Positions 7,712 through 14,104 of a DNA stretch of 64,000 nucleotides are shown here, one piece after another (the stretch's first letter is position 1; every line of letters starts with the position of its first letter). The stretch is from positions 6,837,001-6,901,000 of the forward strand of contig NZ_BLPG01000001.1 of the NCBI RefSeq assembly GCF_011764445.1, written 5' to 3'. The notes under the pieces were generated by a model. The model had not been told where the DNA came from, did not search any database, and saw only the letters and a program-made list of their open reading frames with translations. Source of the DNA: Phytohabitans rumicis. Its GTDB lineage: Bacteria > Actinomycetota > Actinomycetes > Mycobacteriales > Micromonosporaceae. The translations under genes and the position numbers were made by a program.

Positions 7712-8455
7712 GTGACTTCGCCGTACTCCTCGTCAGCGAACTCCAGCCAGCCGTGGGACGCGTTCGACACCGGCTGGTACCTCGACCACAACTACCGGAC
7801 CCTGCGCGACGACGATCAGGTGATCATCGATCGCATCGGGGACCACTTCGCCGCCACGTGCGGGCGCTTCCTCCGGGGGATCGACGTCGGCACCGGCGCC
7901 AACCTCTATCCAGCGCTGGCCATGCTGCCGTACTGCGACGAGATCACGCTGTGGGACCGCGCCAGCTCCAACGTGGACTGGCTACGTCACGAGGTGATGG
8001 GATACTCCCGACTGTGGGACAAGTTCTGGGGCGAGCTCGCCGGCAAGGCCCGCTACCGCCCGGTGCGCGACCCGCGGTTGGAGCTGGCCCTGGTGGCCAC
8101 CGTGCGGCAGGGTGACATCTTCCGGCTCCCCACCGCCCGGTGGGACATCGGCACGATGTTCTTCGTCGCGGAGTCGCTGTCCGGCGAGCGCGCCGAGTTC
8201 GAGTTGGCGATGGCGAAGTTCGTCGGCTGCCTGGTGCCGGGCGCGCCGTTCGCCGCGGCCTTCATGGCGCATTCGCAGGGGTACGTCGTGGGCGAGCGTG
8301 CGTTTCCGGCGGTGCCGATCGTCGCCGACGACGTGGCCCGTACCCTTGAAGCCATCGCTCATAATGTGGACATACACAAGATCGACACTGAGACGCCGCT
8401 GCGGCAGGGATACGACGGCATGATCCTGGCGCTCGGCCACGCCGGCCGCCGGTAG
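7712..8455 (+). CDS. SCO2525-family SAM-dependent methyltransferase-like protein
   Basis: 247 residues with a class I methyltransferase fold resembling the NNMT/PNMT group. The glycine-rich SAM loop DVGTGANLYP is at residues 57-66. The aromatic stretch WDIGTMFFVAESLSGE near 145-160 takes the place of motif IV. The N-terminal stretch WDAFDTGWYLDHNYRTL matches the substrate-lid tyrosines seen in that group. It is the first gene of a rightward run with spacing 19, 10 and -4 bases, so it is probably an operon. I place it in the family NCBI names after S. coelicolor SCO2525 from memory of family features and gene order, not from a search. The substrate is unknown; whether it methylates a small molecule or a partner protein cannot be told. 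Confidence 0.75.
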   Translation: MTSPYSSSANSSQPWDAFDTGWYLDHNYRTLRDDDQVIIDRIGDHFAATCGRFLRGIDVGTGANLYPALAMLPYCDEITLWDRASSNVDWLRHEVMGYSRLWDKFWGELAGKARYRPVRDPRLELALVATVRQGDIFRLPTARWDIGTMFFVAESLSGERAEFELAMAKFVGCLVPGAPFAAAFMAHSQGYVVGERAFPAVPIVADDVARTLEAIAHNVDIHKIDTETPLRQGYDGMILALGHAGRR

Positions 8456-8474
8456 ACCCGGGGAGGAGGAGCCA

Positions 8475-10313
8475 ATGAAGATCCAGCCCCGGCAACAGCT
8501 CCTGGAGATCTGGCAGGCCACCACCCGATCGTCCCTTCAGGACGGCAAGTGGATCTGGGGCAGCAAGGACCGGACCAACTCGATCAGCGACGCCGAGCAA
8601 CTGCTCTCGATCATGTTGCCGGCCACCTCCATGGAGGCGTTCCGGCTCGACCGGCCGAACGAGACGGCCGACGACGTGCTGTCCGCGCTCCGCGGTCTCG
8701 GCGACGCGGTCGAGGTGCCCCAGGTGCTGATCCGGGTCATCACCGACTACATGGAGCGGTACACGGACGCCTCGGGCGCGCCGTCCTTCGCCGGCGACAG
8801 CTACTTCCGGTGCGCCGAGGACGACGGGGATCCGACCGCGGCGCAGGCGGCGACGGACGTGGTGGACTCGTTCGCGATGTCGGTGACGCTGTCGCTGGCG
8901 ACGCTGAGCTTCCTGCGGGGGTTCGCGGCCGAGGTGACCCGGGAGAGCCTTCGCCGCGAGATCGACCACCTGGAGGAGATGGCCAGCAAGCGGTTGAGCG
9001 CGGCCCTGATCGGCCTGCTGCGCAGCTTCACGGTCAACGTAATGGACGCGGACTCCGCGGAGGGGCAACAGCTGATCCGCACCGCCAACCAGCAGGGCCT
9101 GCCCCAGCGCCAGGTCATCGAGGCGTTGCGGCGAGCCCTGGCCCAGGTGCGCGCCTCGCTGCGCGACATCACGATCGGGGTCAACTACGACGCCATCTCG
9201 TCGCTGGACAACCCCAACCGGCTCTTCGAGTGCGGCTGGTCCTGGGGGATCGTCAAGGACGCCCCGTGGGTCGAGACCACCGAAGACGTCGGAGACCAGG
9301 CCGACGGCGTGGCCGAGGCGGCGCCGTACCTCTACTTCTCCGTGGTGGCGCTGAACGCCATCGAGGATCTCTTCTCCGAGCGCACGCGTCTGCTGGGCCT
9401 GCTCCATGAGGAGCAGCAGCGGCTTGCCCAGGAGTTGCAGCGCCGCTGGGACCTGACCCAGCAGTACTGGTCGACGATCGCCAGCTTCGGCGACGGCCGT
9501 TGGCCGGTGGAGGACGTGCCGTGGCGCACCACCGACGGCTTCGAGTCCGACTACTTCAGCCTGCTCGTGACGGCGGTGACCGTGCAGGACCTGGCCAACC
9601 GGCGGGCCACCGACAGCGACCTGGCCCGGGTCGGCGACGTGCTCACCGAGCTGGCCAACCGGGCCCGGATCACCAGCCGGCCGTACCACCGGGACCACGC
9701 CCTTGGCCTGCACCTTCCCGGCGTGGAGCTGACCCTCGGCGGCAGCGAGGAGCGCGGACCGTCGCGCCTGACCTGGCTCGCGGCCGACTTCTCGCCGCTG
9801 CTGCTGAAGCGGATGCTCCGGATCGCGCAGATGATGCACGACTCCGAGCGGCGCGGCGAGCTGCTGCGCCAGTCCGACATGATCTGGGATCACCTGCTGG
9901 AGCGGCGCCTCAAGGACGACACCGGATACCTGTGGGACCAGCCGGCCGGCGCCTATCCCCAACTGCCGATGCGGGATGAGCATCCCTCCTGGTATTACAC
10001 CGAGCGGGTGGTGGAGAGCCTGGTCACCGCCGCCAAACTGGTCAGCAGCCCGCCGTTGCAGAGCCCACGGGTCAGCGCCCACGCCGACGACATGCTGTAC
10101 GAGGCGGAGCACCTCTACGACCAGGAGTTGCTCGGCGGGGCCGGCGAGGCGGGGCCGGCGATGCGTAAGGCGCTGCAGGGGATGCGCCTGACCCTGGAGC
10201 GGGCGCGGCGGATCCGGCATACCCGGCCCGCCACGGCCGTCGCGTTGATCAGCGAGGTGCTGCGCGAGCTGGATCAGCTCACCGCGGCCCGACGCGACGT
10301 GACGTCCTTATAG
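8475..10313 (+). CDS. SCO2524-family protein of unknown function
   Basis: 612 residues, preceded by a strong GGGGAGGAGGAG ribosome site. It appears soluble, with no signal peptide or membrane segment. It is largely helical, with many Glu/Arg/Leu heptad-like stretches (for example around residues 160-180 and 300-330). Several motifs are Trp-rich (KWIWGSKDRTNS near 25, CGWSWGIVKDAPW near 250, HPSWYYTERVVESL near 500). No catalytic motif is recognisable. Position between the methyltransferase-like and P-loop genes matches the SCO2524 slot of the conserved locus. The size and the conserved Trp/Tyr patches suggest a scaffold or an enzyme of unknown fold; this is inference only. Confidence 0.7.
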   Translation: MKIQPRQQLLEIWQATTRSSLQDGKWIWGSKDRTNSISDAEQLLSIMLPATSMEAFRLDRPNETADDVLSALRGLGDAVEVPQVLIRVITDYMERYTDASGAPSFAGDSYFRCAEDDGDPTAAQAATDVVDSFAMSVTLSLATLSFLRGFAAEVTRESLRREIDHLEEMASKRLSAALIGLLRSFTVNVMDADSAEGQQLIRTANQQGLPQRQVIEALRRALAQVRASLRDITIGVNYDAISSLDNPNRLFECGWSWGIVKDAPWVETTEDVGDQADGVAEAAPYLYFSVVALNAIEDLFSERTRLLGLLHEEQQRLAQELQRRWDLTQQYWSTIASFGDGRWPVEDVPWRTTDGFESDYFSLLVTAVTVQDLANRRATDSDLARVGDVLTELANRARITSRPYHRDHALGLHLPGVELTLGGSEERGPSRLTWLAADFSPLLLKRMLRIAQMMHDSERRGELLRQSDMIWDHLLERRLKDDTGYLWDQPAGAYPQLPMRDEHPSWYYTERVVESLVTAAKLVSSPPLQSPRVSAHADDMLYEAEHLYDQELLGGAGEAGPAMRKALQGMRLTLERARRIRHTRPATAVALISEVLRELDQLTAARRDVTSL

Positions 10314-10323
10314 CGAGGCCACA

Positions 10324-11241
10324 GTGCTCATCTTCGCGACCTCCGACAAGGGCGGCACCGGCCGCTCCGTGACCAGCTGCAACGTCCTCTACCGGCGAGC
10401 GTTGCAGGGCAGCGACACCTGCTACCTGGACTTCGACTTCGGGTCGCCGACGGCGGGCACCGTCTTCAACCTGCCCGACGTGGCGCGCGGTACGAACAGG
10501 GGCGGGCTGCACTCGTACCTCCGGGGCCTGGTGTCCGACCCGCACGCGGTGGACATCTGGTCCGAGTCCGACCGGCACAGCCTGCGCGGCCGGCCCGCCG
10601 GTGCCGGCCGGCTCGTGCTCTACCCGGGCGACGCGAGCGGCGGTGAGTTCGCGACCGACACCGAAGTCGTCCGTCGCTGCGTCCGGCTCTTCCTGCGGCT
10701 GGAGGAGGAGTTCGAGCTGACGTTCGTCGACCTCAGCGCCGGCCGCTCGTACGCCACGGAGATCGTGCTCGCCGCGACCGCCATGCCGGAGATGCAGCCG
10801 GTCACCGCCCGGTGGCTGGTCTTCCACCGGTGGACCCGGCAGCACATCATCGCCGCGTCGGGCCTGGTGTACGGGGAGCGCGGCATCATCGACGCCGGCA
10901 TGCAGTGGGGCCACGATCGCAACACGCTCGCCAACTCCATCCGGTTCGTGCGTACCGCGGTGGTCGACCCGAACTCGCCGGAGCTGGCCGGGCTGCGGGC
11001 CGCTCAGGTGGCGTGGCTGCGGGACTGCAACCGGGACCTGCGGGAGCTGGCGACGGACCGGCGCGTCGGCCGGACGCTGGAGCTGGGCTCGGTGCCGCTG
11101 GACCCGGTCCTGCAGTGGCGGGAGCAGCTCATCTCGGACAGTGACGTGCTCGCGCGGCAGATCGCCAACCGGGAGACGGTCGAAGCGTTCGAGGCGCTGG
11201 CGAAGAGGATCAGCGACGACGCGGCGTGGGAGGGGCTGTGA
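10324..11241 (+). CDS. SCO2523-family variant P-loop ATPase-like protein (MinD/ParA-type)
   Basis: 305 residues starting at a GTG. The N-terminus has the deviant Walker A layout of MinD/ParA/Mrp proteins, DKGGTGRSVT at residues 8-17. The signature lysine (K9) is present, but the universally conserved phosphate-binding lysine of the loop is arginine (R14). A switch-like YLDFDFGSPTAGT follows near 38-50, and a Walker B-like ELTFVDLSAGRSY near 138. The C-terminal half is helical. The arginine makes ordinary ATP hydrolysis doubtful; such proteins may bind nucleotide without turnover or act as a regulated switch. It overlaps the next gene by four bases (GTGA), indicating coupled translation. Assignment to the SCO2523 variant P-loop family is from recalled features and context. 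Confidence 0.78.
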   Translation: MLIFATSDKGGTGRSVTSCNVLYRRALQGSDTCYLDFDFGSPTAGTVFNLPDVARGTNRGGLHSYLRGLVSDPHAVDIWSESDRHSLRGRPAGAGRLVLYPGDASGGEFATDTEVVRRCVRLFLRLEEEFELTFVDLSAGRSYATEIVLAATAMPEMQPVTARWLVFHRWTRQHIIAASGLVYGERGIIDAGMQWGHDRNTLANSIRFVRTAVVDPNSPELAGLRAAQVAWLRDCNRDLRELATDRRVGRTLELGSVPLDPVLQWREQLISDSDVLARQIANRETVEAFEALAKRISDDAAWEGL

Positions 11242-12179
11242 CCTCCACCGAGACGGCGGTCTTCCTGGAAGCGTCGGCGGACGGCGGCGTCGAGGCGGTG
11301 CCGCTGTCCCACCTGTCCTTCGAGGTGGGCCACCTCTACGTGGAGGACCTGCGGGCCGGCGTCGCCCGGCTGCGGCGGTACTTCGCGCAGGTCGCGCCGT
11401 GGGCCCAGGCCGCCCGCGCGGCGTGCGGCGAAGAGGTGGACCCGGCGAACGCCCGGATCAGCACCTGCTTCCTGATCGACGACTACTTCACCCAGCCCGG
11501 ACCGCCGAGCGAGCTGGTGCCGCAGATCGTCGACGCGGCCCGGGACAGCGGCCTGCGGATCGACTATCTGGTCCGCGAGTCGGCGTGTGCCGAACTGGCG
11601 CCGATCGTGGAGGGTCGCCTCGTCACCGAGCCGGTACCGGGGACCAACGGGTCGCGGCCGCCGCCCTCGGAGGTCGGCTGGCTCTGCAACGGGCAGCGCT
11701 CGCCCGCACCGCACGCCGCGGAGGCGATGGCCGTGCCGGACGGCTGGCGACCGCCGGTGGAGAACGCCGTGAACCGGCACTCGATCTTTGTCGACGTGGA
11801 GCTGTGGGACGAGCGGGGCGGCCGGCGTACCTGGTCGTGCGCCTTTCTCTCGGCCGTCTGGCAGCTGGCCCGCCTCGGCCTGATCCGCAACGCCGGCGAC
11901 AACCCGCTGATCCCCGAGGACGTCGCCGAGCTGCCTGAGCGCTGGGCGGCCCTGCCCCCGATCGTCCGGCTCCAGGCCGACGCGCCGCCGTTCTTCGCGT
12001 ACCAGTCGTTCTCGGTGCTGGGCGCCCGGTTCCTGTCGATCGAGAGCGCCGTTCGTACGATCCTCTCCCAGGTCGCGATCCCCGGCGACGTACTGCGCCA
12101 GACCGACGACCGGGCCATGGCCGAAGGATTCGACCTGCCGGCGGCGGCGCTCGACCGGATCCGCTACGCGTTCGTGTAG
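11238..12179 (+). CDS. SCO2522-family protein of unknown function
   Basis: 313 residues. The GTG at 11238 overlaps the previous stop as GTGA and has GGGAGGGG just upstream, so it is preferred over the GTG at 11226. The protein looks soluble and globular, with no signal peptide and no motif I can name. Short conserved-looking stretches are FLIDDYFT near 80, VGWLCNGQRSPAPHAAEAM near 145-165 and ARFLSIESAVRTILSQVAI near 262-281. The family is found only with its neighbours, as far as I recall, so it probably works in the same process as the P-loop protein. Confidence 0.7.
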   Translation: MTSTETAVFLEASADGGVEAVPLSHLSFEVGHLYVEDLRAGVARLRRYFAQVAPWAQAARAACGEEVDPANARISTCFLIDDYFTQPGPPSELVPQIVDAARDSGLRIDYLVRESACAELAPIVEGRLVTEPVPGTNGSRPPPSEVGWLCNGQRSPAPHAAEAMAVPDGWRPPVENAVNRHSIFVDVELWDERGGRRTWSCAFLSAVWQLARLGLIRNAGDNPLIPEDVAELPERWAALPPIVRLQADAPPFFAYQSFSVLGARFLSIESAVRTILSQVAIPGDVLRQTDDRAMAEGFDLPAAALDRIRYAFV

Positions 12180-12189
12180 CGGGCGGGCG

Positions 12190-13085
12190 TCACGCCGGTT
12201 CCGCCCAGCCGTGCGCGGCCGCGAGGCGCCGTACCGCCGCGATGAGCGCCTCGGTCGCGGCCAGCCCGGCCTGCGACTGCTCGACCTGCTCGTCGATCCC
12301 CGCGGCGATGGCGTACTGGGTGCCGGCGAAGTAGCGGGACAGCGGCCGGAGGTCGTCGGCGGTCAGTAGGGCGTCCATCGCCCGGACCAGGTCGTCGTCC
12401 AGCTCACCCGGGTCCCAGTAGCTCACCGACGCCGCGGTGAGCAGCCGCCCGATCTCCTTGGCGTCCTCTGTGGAGATCCAGCCGAGCTGCTGGCGCACCA
12501 TGTGCGGCTGGACGTGCTCCTTCATGAACCGCCACCGGGCCGCGGCGTCGCGCAGCAGGCGCTGCGCCCGATCCTGGGACACCAGCGCCCGCGACCATAC
12601 GTCGTGGATGTCCCGCCATTCGCGTACGGCGGCGACGAGGAGCGGCTGGCTGTGTTTGTCGCGGGCGGCCGGAAGTAGCTCGTCGTTGAGGACCCGGATC
12701 CGGTCGTACAGCTCGCCGACGTCGTTCGCGCCGGTCGTCAGGCCGGTCACGTCGTGCAGGATCTCGCGGACGGTGGCCTTCGCCAGCGTGGCCACGCCCC
12801 GCTGGTCGCGCTTCTGCGACTCGTTCGCGGTGAAGCCCTGCAGCACGATCAGGGCCAGCGGTACGCCGAACAGCGCCCCGGTCACGGTCGAGGCGAGGTT
12901 GGTCAGGAACGGCAGCTCGTCCCACCAGCCGGCGAAGTCGCCGATCGCGCCGAGGACGGTGGACACGCCCCCGCGGACCACATCGCGACGCAGGCCACCC
13001 GCAGTGCCGGGCTGGCGTTCGCCCAGGAGCGGCGCAGCCACGAGCCGGCCTCCGTCGCGCCGTCCCGGCGCGGCGGCGCGCTCAT
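12190..13085 (-). CDS. two-helix membrane protein of the SCO2521-2525-type locus (frameshifted)
   Basis: About 298 residues if repaired. The ATG at 13085 overlaps the upstream stop as ATGA, so the start is well supported, but the frame from this ATG breaks in the C-run 12968-12972; one extra base joins ...VACVAMWSAGG to VSTVLGAIGDFAGWWDEL. Repaired, the N-terminus holds two hydrophobic segments (ALRVACVAMW...LGAI and LPFLTNLASTVTGALFGVPL...) separated by GWWDE. A long helical cytoplasmic domain follows, rich in Arg and Glu (TANESQKRDQ onward). This resembles Streptomyces two-TM proteins with an LPFLTNL...TG-LFG-P motif; no function is known. Coupling to the SCO2521-type gene suggests a membrane anchor for the locus. 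Confidence 0.7.
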
Positions 13086-14104
13086 CGGCGTACCGGTCCG
13101 GGATCGTCGTCGGGGGAATCCAGGGAGGGGATCGCCCCGGCGTCCATCTGGTCCCGTACCCGGTCGACGCAGGTCTGCCACTGCCGGCTGAGGCCGGATC
13201 GGTGCTCCAGTTCCCGCCACAGCGGCAGGAGCGGCTCCGGCATCCGGGCGGCGGGCATCCAGAGGTGCAGCAGGTGGTCGACCGCCGGTCGGAGCCGGTG
13301 GACGACGCGGCGGCGGGCGTTGACCCCGATTCCGCTGCGCTCCAGGAGCCGCAGCAGGGACGTGAGCAGCCAGTCGTGCCGCGCGAGGTCCGCACAGAAG
13401 TGCGCGACGTACGGCAGCTCGTCCTCGGGGACCTCCAGGTGGGCGGTGCGCAGCGTGCTGTTGACGACGGTGAACCGGACGGTGCGGCCGGCGCCCGGCA
13501 CCGCGCTCCACCGGAACTCGGTGCGCGCCATGCGAAACGGCGGCCGGCGGTCGACCTCCGGCCGGCTCTGCACCGCGTCCATCAGGCCCGCGGACACGGC
13601 GCCGAGGTCGAGATGCGCGGGATCCCGGCCGTCGGCGAGGAATCCGGCGGCGAGATCGTCCGCGCCCACCTTGCCCATCAGCTCCACCCGGCCCGGGTGC
13701 GACAGGTAGTGCGCCCAGGACATCCGCCGGCCGTTCCGGCTCGGTCCCAGTACGGCGTACGAGGAGCCTTGCAGGAGGTGGCCACCGGTCAGGGCGGCGC
13801 GGGAGGTGACCGTGCCGATGCCGCGTACCTGGCCGCCGGAGGCGCCGGCGAGGGAGCAGTCGATGCCGGTGAGTATCTCGGGCGACTCGGCGTACGCGAT
13901 CGGGCGTTCCGATGTGCGTACCCGCCCGCCGGGGGCGAGCCGCAGGATGTCGGCGGAGACCGCGGCGCCGACCGCGCCGGCGTGCTGCAGGAGGCCGGTG
14001 TGGACCTCGCCCAGGATCAGCGTCGCGACCGCGCGCGGCCCAGCGCCGCCACGCCGCCCGGACCGAGGCCGGGACCTGCCCGCGGGCGGGGCGAGTGAAG
14101 CCAC
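13082..14104 (-). CDS. SCO2521-family protein of unknown function
   Basis: About 340 residues. The GTG at 14104 is chosen because GGAGG (14111-14115 on this strand) lies six bases upstream; an ATG at 14146 is in frame but has no ribosome site. Recognisable stretches are LILGEVHTGLLQ near 29-40, AGGVRT...PIAYAESPEILTGIDC near 60-80, a Gly/Ser stretch, FRMARTEFRWSAVPG near 180, and an Arg-rich helical C-terminus. The gene runs convergent to the four-gene rightward operon and is coupled to the membrane protein by ATGA. It is assigned to the SCO2521 family by gene context and recalled motifs. Possible alternative: an encapsulated or secretion-related scaffold; nothing in the sequence settles this. 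Confidence 0.7.
   Translation of the reverse strand: MASLAPPAGRSRPRSGRRGGAGPRAVATLILGEVHTGLLQHAGAVGAAVSADILRLAPGGRVRTSERPIAYAESPEILTGIDCSLAGASGGQVRGIGTVTSRAALTGGHLLQGSSYAVLGPSRNGRRMSWAHYLSHPGRVELMGKVGADDLAAGFLADGRDPAHLDLGAVSAGLMDAVQSRPEVDRRPPFRMARTEFRWSAVPGAGRTVRFTVVNSTLRTAHLEVPEDELPYVAHFCADLARHDWLLTSLLRLLERSGIGVNARRRVVHRLRPAVDHLLHLWMPAARMPEPLLPLWRELEHRSGLSRQWQTCVDRVRDQMDAGAIPSLDSPDDDPGPVRR

Follow-up and report, generated by a model that had tools for sequence, protein, structure and literature searches.

A conserved SCO2521–SCO2524 gene core with changing neighbors, seen from Phytohabitans rumicis: a possible cell-fate or conflict module of filamentous actinobacteria

The window analyzed here is a stretch of 64,000 nucleotides from Phytohabitans rumicis (NCBI RefSeq assembly GCF_011764445.1, contig NZ_BLPG01000001.1, positions 6,837,001 to 6,901,000 of the forward strand). 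Its positions 7712 to 14104 carry a locus of six genes, five of which belong to the protein families SCO2521 to SCO2525, named after genes of Streptomyces coelicolor. Across the loci compared here, a four-protein core (SCO2521 to SCO2524) is kept together and the neighboring partners differ, in some genomes including a likely sensor for cell suicide. The locus, a set of genes of filamentous soil bacteria, may thus govern the fate of the cell instead of serving ordinary metabolism. Its genes are the following (bit scores are given against the curated cut-off of each NCBIfam equivalog model):

7712..8455, + strand: SCO2525-family S-adenosylmethionine (SAM) methyltransferase of the NNMT/PNMT/TEMT type, 247 residues (NF040568, 318 bits against 240)
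8475..10313, + strand: SCO2524-family helical protein with helical hairpins, 612 residues (NF040567, 886 against 300)
10324..11241, + strand: SCO2523-family variant P-loop protein with a KGGTGRS motif, 305 residues (NF040564, 512 against 200)
11238..12179, + strand: SCO2522-family protein with a modeled Rossmann-like fold, 313 residues (NF040566, 415 against 200)
12190..~12981, − strand: orphan membrane/helical protein, 263 residues as read, in the slot of the usual DUF6879 protein
13082..14104, − strand: SCO2521-family protein without a recognizable fold, 340 residues (NF040565, 370 against 150)

An earlier note on this DNA, written from the sequence alone, had described a six-gene locus matching the SCO2521–SCO2525 families; its observations are partly confirmed and its interpretation partly supported. 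The hidden Markov model search with NF040564–NF040568 places the five adjoining proteins far above the cut-offs, as the note had proposed, and GC content by codon position agrees with coding in the frames of these five genes. The four genes on the + strand are separated by 19 nucleotides and 10 nucleotides, and the last two overlap by 4 nucleotides. The structured RNA search gave no Rfam match in the locus, in which no promoter-like sites and three terminator-like sites (1.1 expected) were counted. The NCBIfam models provide protein names without a function, and the sixth gene falls in none of them. The window also lacks the DUF6879 neighbor usual for SCO2521–SCO2525 loci, the slot being filled by an unrelated protein.

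The note is borne out for five genes of the locus but not for the sixth, an orphan with a broken frame, which it had taken for a protein with two transmembrane segments coupled to SCO2521. The ATG that overlaps the SCO2521 stop opens a frame of 60 codons only (12903-13086, − strand), different from the supposed two-transmembrane reading frame (12190 to ~12981, − strand), and the latter has one hydrophobic span as read. In G512, a sibling genome of the same genus, the homologue is a single frame of 299 residues with two hydrophobic spans that begins at a 4-nucleotide overlap with SCO2521; its start aligns to about position 13085 of the window. The window's frame break relative to G512 may be genuine or may come from an error in the sequence. 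Searches of NCBIfam, Pfam and PADLOC gave no significant hit for the orphan protein, and genes of its type occur in 2 of 61 related genomes, namely the window's own and one other of its genus.

The composition of the locus was compared in 87 loci, comprising the window, six loci from a search of the phylum (L008-L013) and the best 80 of 360 relatives, a set skewed towards window-like sequences. Genes were called with a custom script, partners were classed as single-linkage BLAST clusters, of which only representatives were searched against Pfam or NCBIfam, and a partner was counted when it lay within three genes of the core. SCO2523 stands beside SCO2524 in all 87 loci, with SCO2522 in 85 and SCO2521 in 82, which is far more linkage than chance would give and upholds the proposed linkage in other genomes. 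The further statement that the five families are kept together across actinobacteria holds for these near-universal four but not for the SCO2525 methyltransferase, which lies near the core in only 46 loci. Among the other partners, a DUF6879-type membrane protein is found near the core in 69 loci, an oxidase of the DAO superfamily, dependent on flavin adenine dinucleotide (FAD), in 61 (two groups, of 34 and 27 loci), a GNAT protein in 13, and a NACHT-type protein in 10, of which eight belong to a DUF4062-NACHT-HEAT cluster and two are other NACHT proteins. Methyltransferase, oxidase and GNAT are all missing in 10 of the 87.

In most loci the membrane protein gene adjoins SCO2521, and one or two hydrophobic spans were found in 78 of 80 DUF6879-type proteins. 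The DUF6879 label comes from PF21806, matched at E ≤ 0.1 by 22 of 23 aligned members; one cluster representative scores above the Pfam gathering score and one just below it. Genes of this type are scarce in the genome of the window, where 2 copies were counted and a tandem pair lies away from the locus (G000:C1:178578-180513; L094, L095, L096). The NACHT-type partner of locus L016 combines, by Pfam, DUF4062 (78 bits against 24.7), HEAT_2 (190 bits) and NPHP3_N (27.1 against 24.8), with a NACHT score (24.9) slightly below the cut-off of 26.7. The partner in L043 joins NACHT (44.1) to an FGE-sulfatase domain (144), and that in L066 joins NACHT (27.1) to HEAT. Among the members and relatives of the DUF4062 cluster the P-loop is present in all 11 and the SITELEY stretch of the DUF4062 region in 10. 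Dactylosporangium vinaceum has the locus twice (L070 and L088), at a distance of roughly 0.14 Mb, and a DUF4062-NACHT-type protein is present in each.

DUF6879-type and NACHT-type partners occur in 69 and 10 loci, respectively, never in the same one, and eight loci have neither; likewise, oxidase (61 loci) and GNAT (13) never coincide, 13 loci having neither. On the core tree these patterns require, at the minimum, 4 changes for NACHT, 6 for DUF6879, 4 for GNAT, 12 for the oxidase and 9 for the methyltransferase. The mutual exclusion is suggestive only, because the independent events on the tree are few and no paired test is significant. As a separate observation, Streptosporangiaceae loci (for example L038, L060 and L074) have upstream genes for an M20 hydrolase, an o-succinylbenzoate synthase-like enzyme and a membrane dipeptidase, among others, a set that we take to be reminiscent of D-amino-acid conversion.

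The folds and motifs of the core proteins were studied with alignments of subsets of the homologues (29 of 85 for SCO2522, 29 of 82 for SCO2521, 25 of 87 for SCO2523, 24 of 49 for the methyltransferase and 23 of 80 for the DUF6879-type proteins). In SCO2523, the motif KGGTGR[ST], with arginine replacing the usual Walker A lysine of KGGxGK, was found in 85 of 87 copies, the other two gene calls starting after the motif. Residues 5-69 match NUBPL/MinD-type proteins of the PDB (best E 1.5e-5), and it is in this N-terminal P-loop region that the likeness to ParA/MinD/NUBPL proteins lies. SCO2523 lacks the canonical Walker A motif and scores far below the cut-off of the MinD model TIGR01968 (16.2 bits against 212.9).

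For SCO2522, the AlphaFold2 model (mean confidence, pLDDT, 85.8) suggests a Rossmann-like fold that may be nearest to class I aminoacyl-tRNA synthetases. The only Foldseek match at E ≤ 0.001 was the Thermus arginyl-tRNA synthetase 1iq0 (E 2e-4, probability 0.99, but a TM-score of only 0.38 and a root-mean-square deviation of 11). Of the 50 matches listed, 17 belong to proteins that share the HUP fold (class I synthetases, argininosuccinate synthetase, MnmA or USP), and the others include entries for Hsp70/MreB, glycosyltransferases and eIF2B. A synthetase homology of SCO2522 at the sequence level was not supported: hhalign gave a probability of 0.2% against 29 arginyl-tRNA synthetase sequences (two of them fragments, after removal of one further sequence that contained stops), and no Pfam family was matched by more than 1 of 29 SCO2522 members. 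In the window's genome, two genes score higher than the cut-off of the arginyl-tRNA synthetase family (G000:C1:4165386-4167032 and G000:C1:3270013-3271560). The SCO2524 model (pLDDT 76.9) consists of paired helices and has no PDB match at E ≤ 0.001 in Foldseek; the paired helices might form an alpha/alpha toroid, but the matches, none at E ≤ 0.001, are a mixture of import adaptors, HEAT-like proteins, and phosphorylase and cyclase toroids. SCO2521 has no recognizable fold, and no Pfam family was matched at E ≤ 1 by more than 1 of its 29 aligned homologues.

The SCO2525 methyltransferase resembles NNMT, PNMT and TEMT (PF01234) by sequence profile. The window protein lies just above the gathering score of that family, a slim margin (27.1 bits against 25), and a profile built from 24 homologues finds the structures of PNMT (E 7.8e-8, the best value) and NNMT, aligning to PNMT over most of its length, including the SAM-binding DIGSG region. 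A custom pattern, DVG.G.N.Y, is found in 42 of 49 members. Gehring et al., in 2004, reportedly showed that SCO2525 influences colony growth and development. Passages of three later papers return to this gene: one describes sco2521-sco2526 as a HupS-controlled operon, with SCO2525 as a putative methyltransferase required for normal growth (PMC11472566), another places SCO2525 under HrdB control and gives it a morphogenetic role (PMC6344877), and a third credits Gehring et al., 2004 for SCO2525 (PMC3017869). The earlier note, which knew of no member with a described role, had overlooked this mutant work; the locus is not wholly undescribed, since SCO2525 has a published developmental role. Nothing on SCO2521-2525 was found in passages of PMC6135851 and PMC13118837. 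A literature search for DUF6879, KGGVGR or the SCO2521-2524 family names found these terms in none of the papers covered, three of which contain the five locus tags.

The distribution of the locus is patchy. Of 396 genomes from the phylum, 7 have SCO2524, as do 25 among the 61 relatives of the window genome. A wider collection of genome contigs gave 360 stretches with this gene, of which the best 80 were kept for the comparison above. SCO2524 also occurs in 21 of 121 genomes of the genus of G334, in 20 of them above cut-off. SCO2522 is found in exactly the same 20 genomes, about 1 kb away in 19 and 3.4 kb away in one, and the SCO2525 model exceeds its cut-off in 19 of the 20 and nowhere else among the 121. 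Additional genomes have methyltransferase paralogues that score less well; at E ≤ 0.001 the count is 34 of 121. In G460 a SCO2524 gene with an open frame adjoins a methyltransferase broken into two fragments, one of them interrupted by two TAG stops (G460:C1:4078617-4079115). Named carriers are filamentous organisms and include Micromonosporaceae, Streptosporangiaceae, Frankia, Actinomadura, Kitasatospora and similar genera; the conservation of SCO2524 between orders is 44-47%. In two genomes, each of a different genus, SCO2524 is split at about residue 257-260 (G512:C1:5316205-5318036 and G514:C1:3616287-3617866); a programmed frameshift was considered and rejected, as both breaks sit amid other frame breaks (SCO2523 in G514) and an assembly error is as likely.

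In Phytohabitans, the locus occupies one chromosomal site, between an asparagine synthetase-like gene and the gene of a secreted protein, which we take to be of the AA10 type. The window and G512 carry the same version, in which the partner is the orphan. The version of G513 is another one, containing an oxidase gene and two genes of the DUF6879 type, its locus genes being identical to those of Phytohabitans maris (L015), and the locus of G510 is without methyltransferase, DUF6879 and oxidase genes. In G511 both flanking genes lie side by side and the locus is gone, save for 23 residues of the methyltransferase (91% identical, E 6.7e-12). When G512 is compared with G513, the identity is 45% for SCO2521, 50% for the methyltransferase, 52% for SCO2522, 61% for SCO2524 (over 355 residues) and 75% for SCO2523; five genes of the flanks are 86-95% identical. 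The two versions may have arisen by rapid divergence at the site itself and not by import from a distant source, because the core tree joins them as neighbors and mostly follows families.

Taken together, the gene content suggests, tentatively and at well short of an even chance, that filamentous actinobacteria have here an accessory module, complete in itself, for cell fate or conflict, in which a conserved core is combined with an exchangeable executioner or receptor. The SCO2521-2524 core would sense a state or make a signal and restrain its partner; the partner would act as executioner or receptor, in the case of DUF4062 by depletion of nicotinamide adenine dinucleotide (NAD); and the small-molecule enzymes (NNMT-like methyltransferase, FAD oxidases and GNAT) might set or end the signal. 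In such a device, SCO2523 may be a nucleotide-bound switch with weakened or absent ATPase activity, SCO2522 a nucleotide-binding enzyme or sensor, and SCO2524 a scaffold. The account of exchangeable partners is favored because NLR-like proteins, one of them with a probable NADase domain, lie near the same four genes, and because the locus is patchy, can be lost whole and has strongly diverged versions at one site. A 2026 preprint presents DUF4062 as a TIR-like NADase in antiphage defense (PMC13174449). Eight of our loci hold a DUF4062-NACHT-HEAT-cluster protein beside the same core, but the Swarozyc system of that preprint works without the SCO2521-2524 core as far as it is described there, and the window has no DUF4062 domain. 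Other conflict systems dependent on nucleoside triphosphates (NTP), according to a portion of a 2020 paper (PMC7159879), favor developmentally complex bacteria and may have inactive MinD/ParA-like domains; the lineage bias, the NACHT/FGE partners and a probably inactive ParA/MinD-like protein are common to those systems and to this locus. Compared with the VMAP/EAD ternary conflict systems, no vWA, MoxR, VMAP or EAD module appears among the NCBIfam and Pfam matches of the six window proteins, libraries that perhaps do not include the EAD and VMAP models.

Several results weigh against a conflict module or lend it no clear support. PADLOC (2023) gave no significant match for the six window proteins, and among eight partner proteins searched at 1e-5 only one FAD oxidase matched, to a generic flavoprotein model. 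In a rough test for defense islands, 85 flanking proteins matched 45 PADLOC models at 1e-10 and 62 control proteins matched 8; the 25 flanking models listed had one member each and included IscS-like, TnpB-like and kinase-like ones. After tree correction (five loci with nearby contig ends dropped, four congeners or relatives added by hand), the sign test for exclusion gave a median p of 1 for the DUF6879 slot against NACHT and a p of 0.5 for DAO against GNAT. G460 keeps its core with a broken methyltransferase, which argues against this enzyme as an indispensable antidote. No SCO2524 homologue was found in phage or plasmid collections, on which ground a mobile-element origin was set aside; one Sphaerisporangium copy of the locus lies on a record labeled plasmid (L041). 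The core tree, which mostly tracks families and has the G512 and G513 versions as neighbors (support 95), points mostly to a locus that is inherited and lost, not one that moves freely.

The chief alternative is a small-molecule pathway, in which an amine- or amino-acid-derived compound influencing growth and differentiation would be made or modified: SCO2522 would activate a carboxylate or nucleotide, SCO2525 would N-methylate, the oxidases or GNAT would act on the amine, and the membrane or NACHT partner would be the receptor. This is doubtful, if a serious possibility. It is consistent with the resemblance of SCO2525 to amine and pyridine N-methyltransferases and with its developmental phenotype, cited in the three papers above; with the oxidase groups and GNAT that adjoin the core and are never found together; with the class I synthetases as nearest neighbors of the SCO2522 model; and with the dipeptidase and o-succinylbenzoate synthase-like enzyme near the Streptosporangiaceae loci. 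However, hhalign gives the synthetase relation no sequence support, the enzyme set varies to the point that ten loci have none of the three enzymes, the oxidase/GNAT pattern tracks lineages, and the pathway alone leaves the exchange with DUF4062-NACHT-HEAT proteins unexplained. It can be combined with a conflict or cell-fate module if the locus makes or tunes a signal that the exchangeable partner reads.

The earlier note had instead proposed a membrane-associated machine with a MinD-like switch, which may be read as one for positioning or assembly in hyphal growth or development. The relation of SCO2523 to ParA/MinD-type P-loop proteins, the membrane protein next to SCO2521 in most loci, with its one or two hydrophobic spans in nearly all DUF6879-type members (78/80), and the S. 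coelicolor phenotype with HupS-dependent expression of sco2521-sco2526 speak for it. Such a machine nevertheless appears distinctly unlikely: SCO2523 matches only at its N-terminus, at 16 bits against 212.9, its Walker A lysine is arginine in 85 of 87 copies, no MinC-, MinE- or ParB-like partner was recognized, and partner exchange and locus loss would be odd for cell architecture. The least probable of the readings is an ordinary accessory metabolic locus, partly decaying, with partners as chance neighbors carried along by lineage. It would account for the broken frame of the orphan gene in the window, the broken copies in G512, G514 and G460, the loss in G511 and the few independent partner exchanges, but it fits poorly with the high conservation of the core protein SCO2524 (44-47% even between orders), with a core complete in nearly all 87 loci, and with DUF6879-type genes that have only 2 copies in the window's genome and yet stand beside the core in 69 loci.

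Returning to the module with exchangeable partners, a bolder version of it, speculative and in our view unlikely, is that SCO2521-2524 form the core of an undescribed actinobacterial cell-fate or immune system. This would be a four-protein signaling device wired to different executioners (a DUF6879 membrane protein, a TIR-like NADase STAND protein or the window's orphan) and tuned by a nicotinamide-methyltransferase-like enzyme; the SCO2525 mutant phenotype would then be an autoimmune or mis-set cell-fate effect. No mechanism goes with these family names, even though SCO2525 acts on the growth and development of colonies in the model Streptomyces. If the DUF6879 and DUF4062-NACHT-HEAT proteins truly share a slot, a puzzling developmental gene would be tied to bacterial NLR-like executioners.

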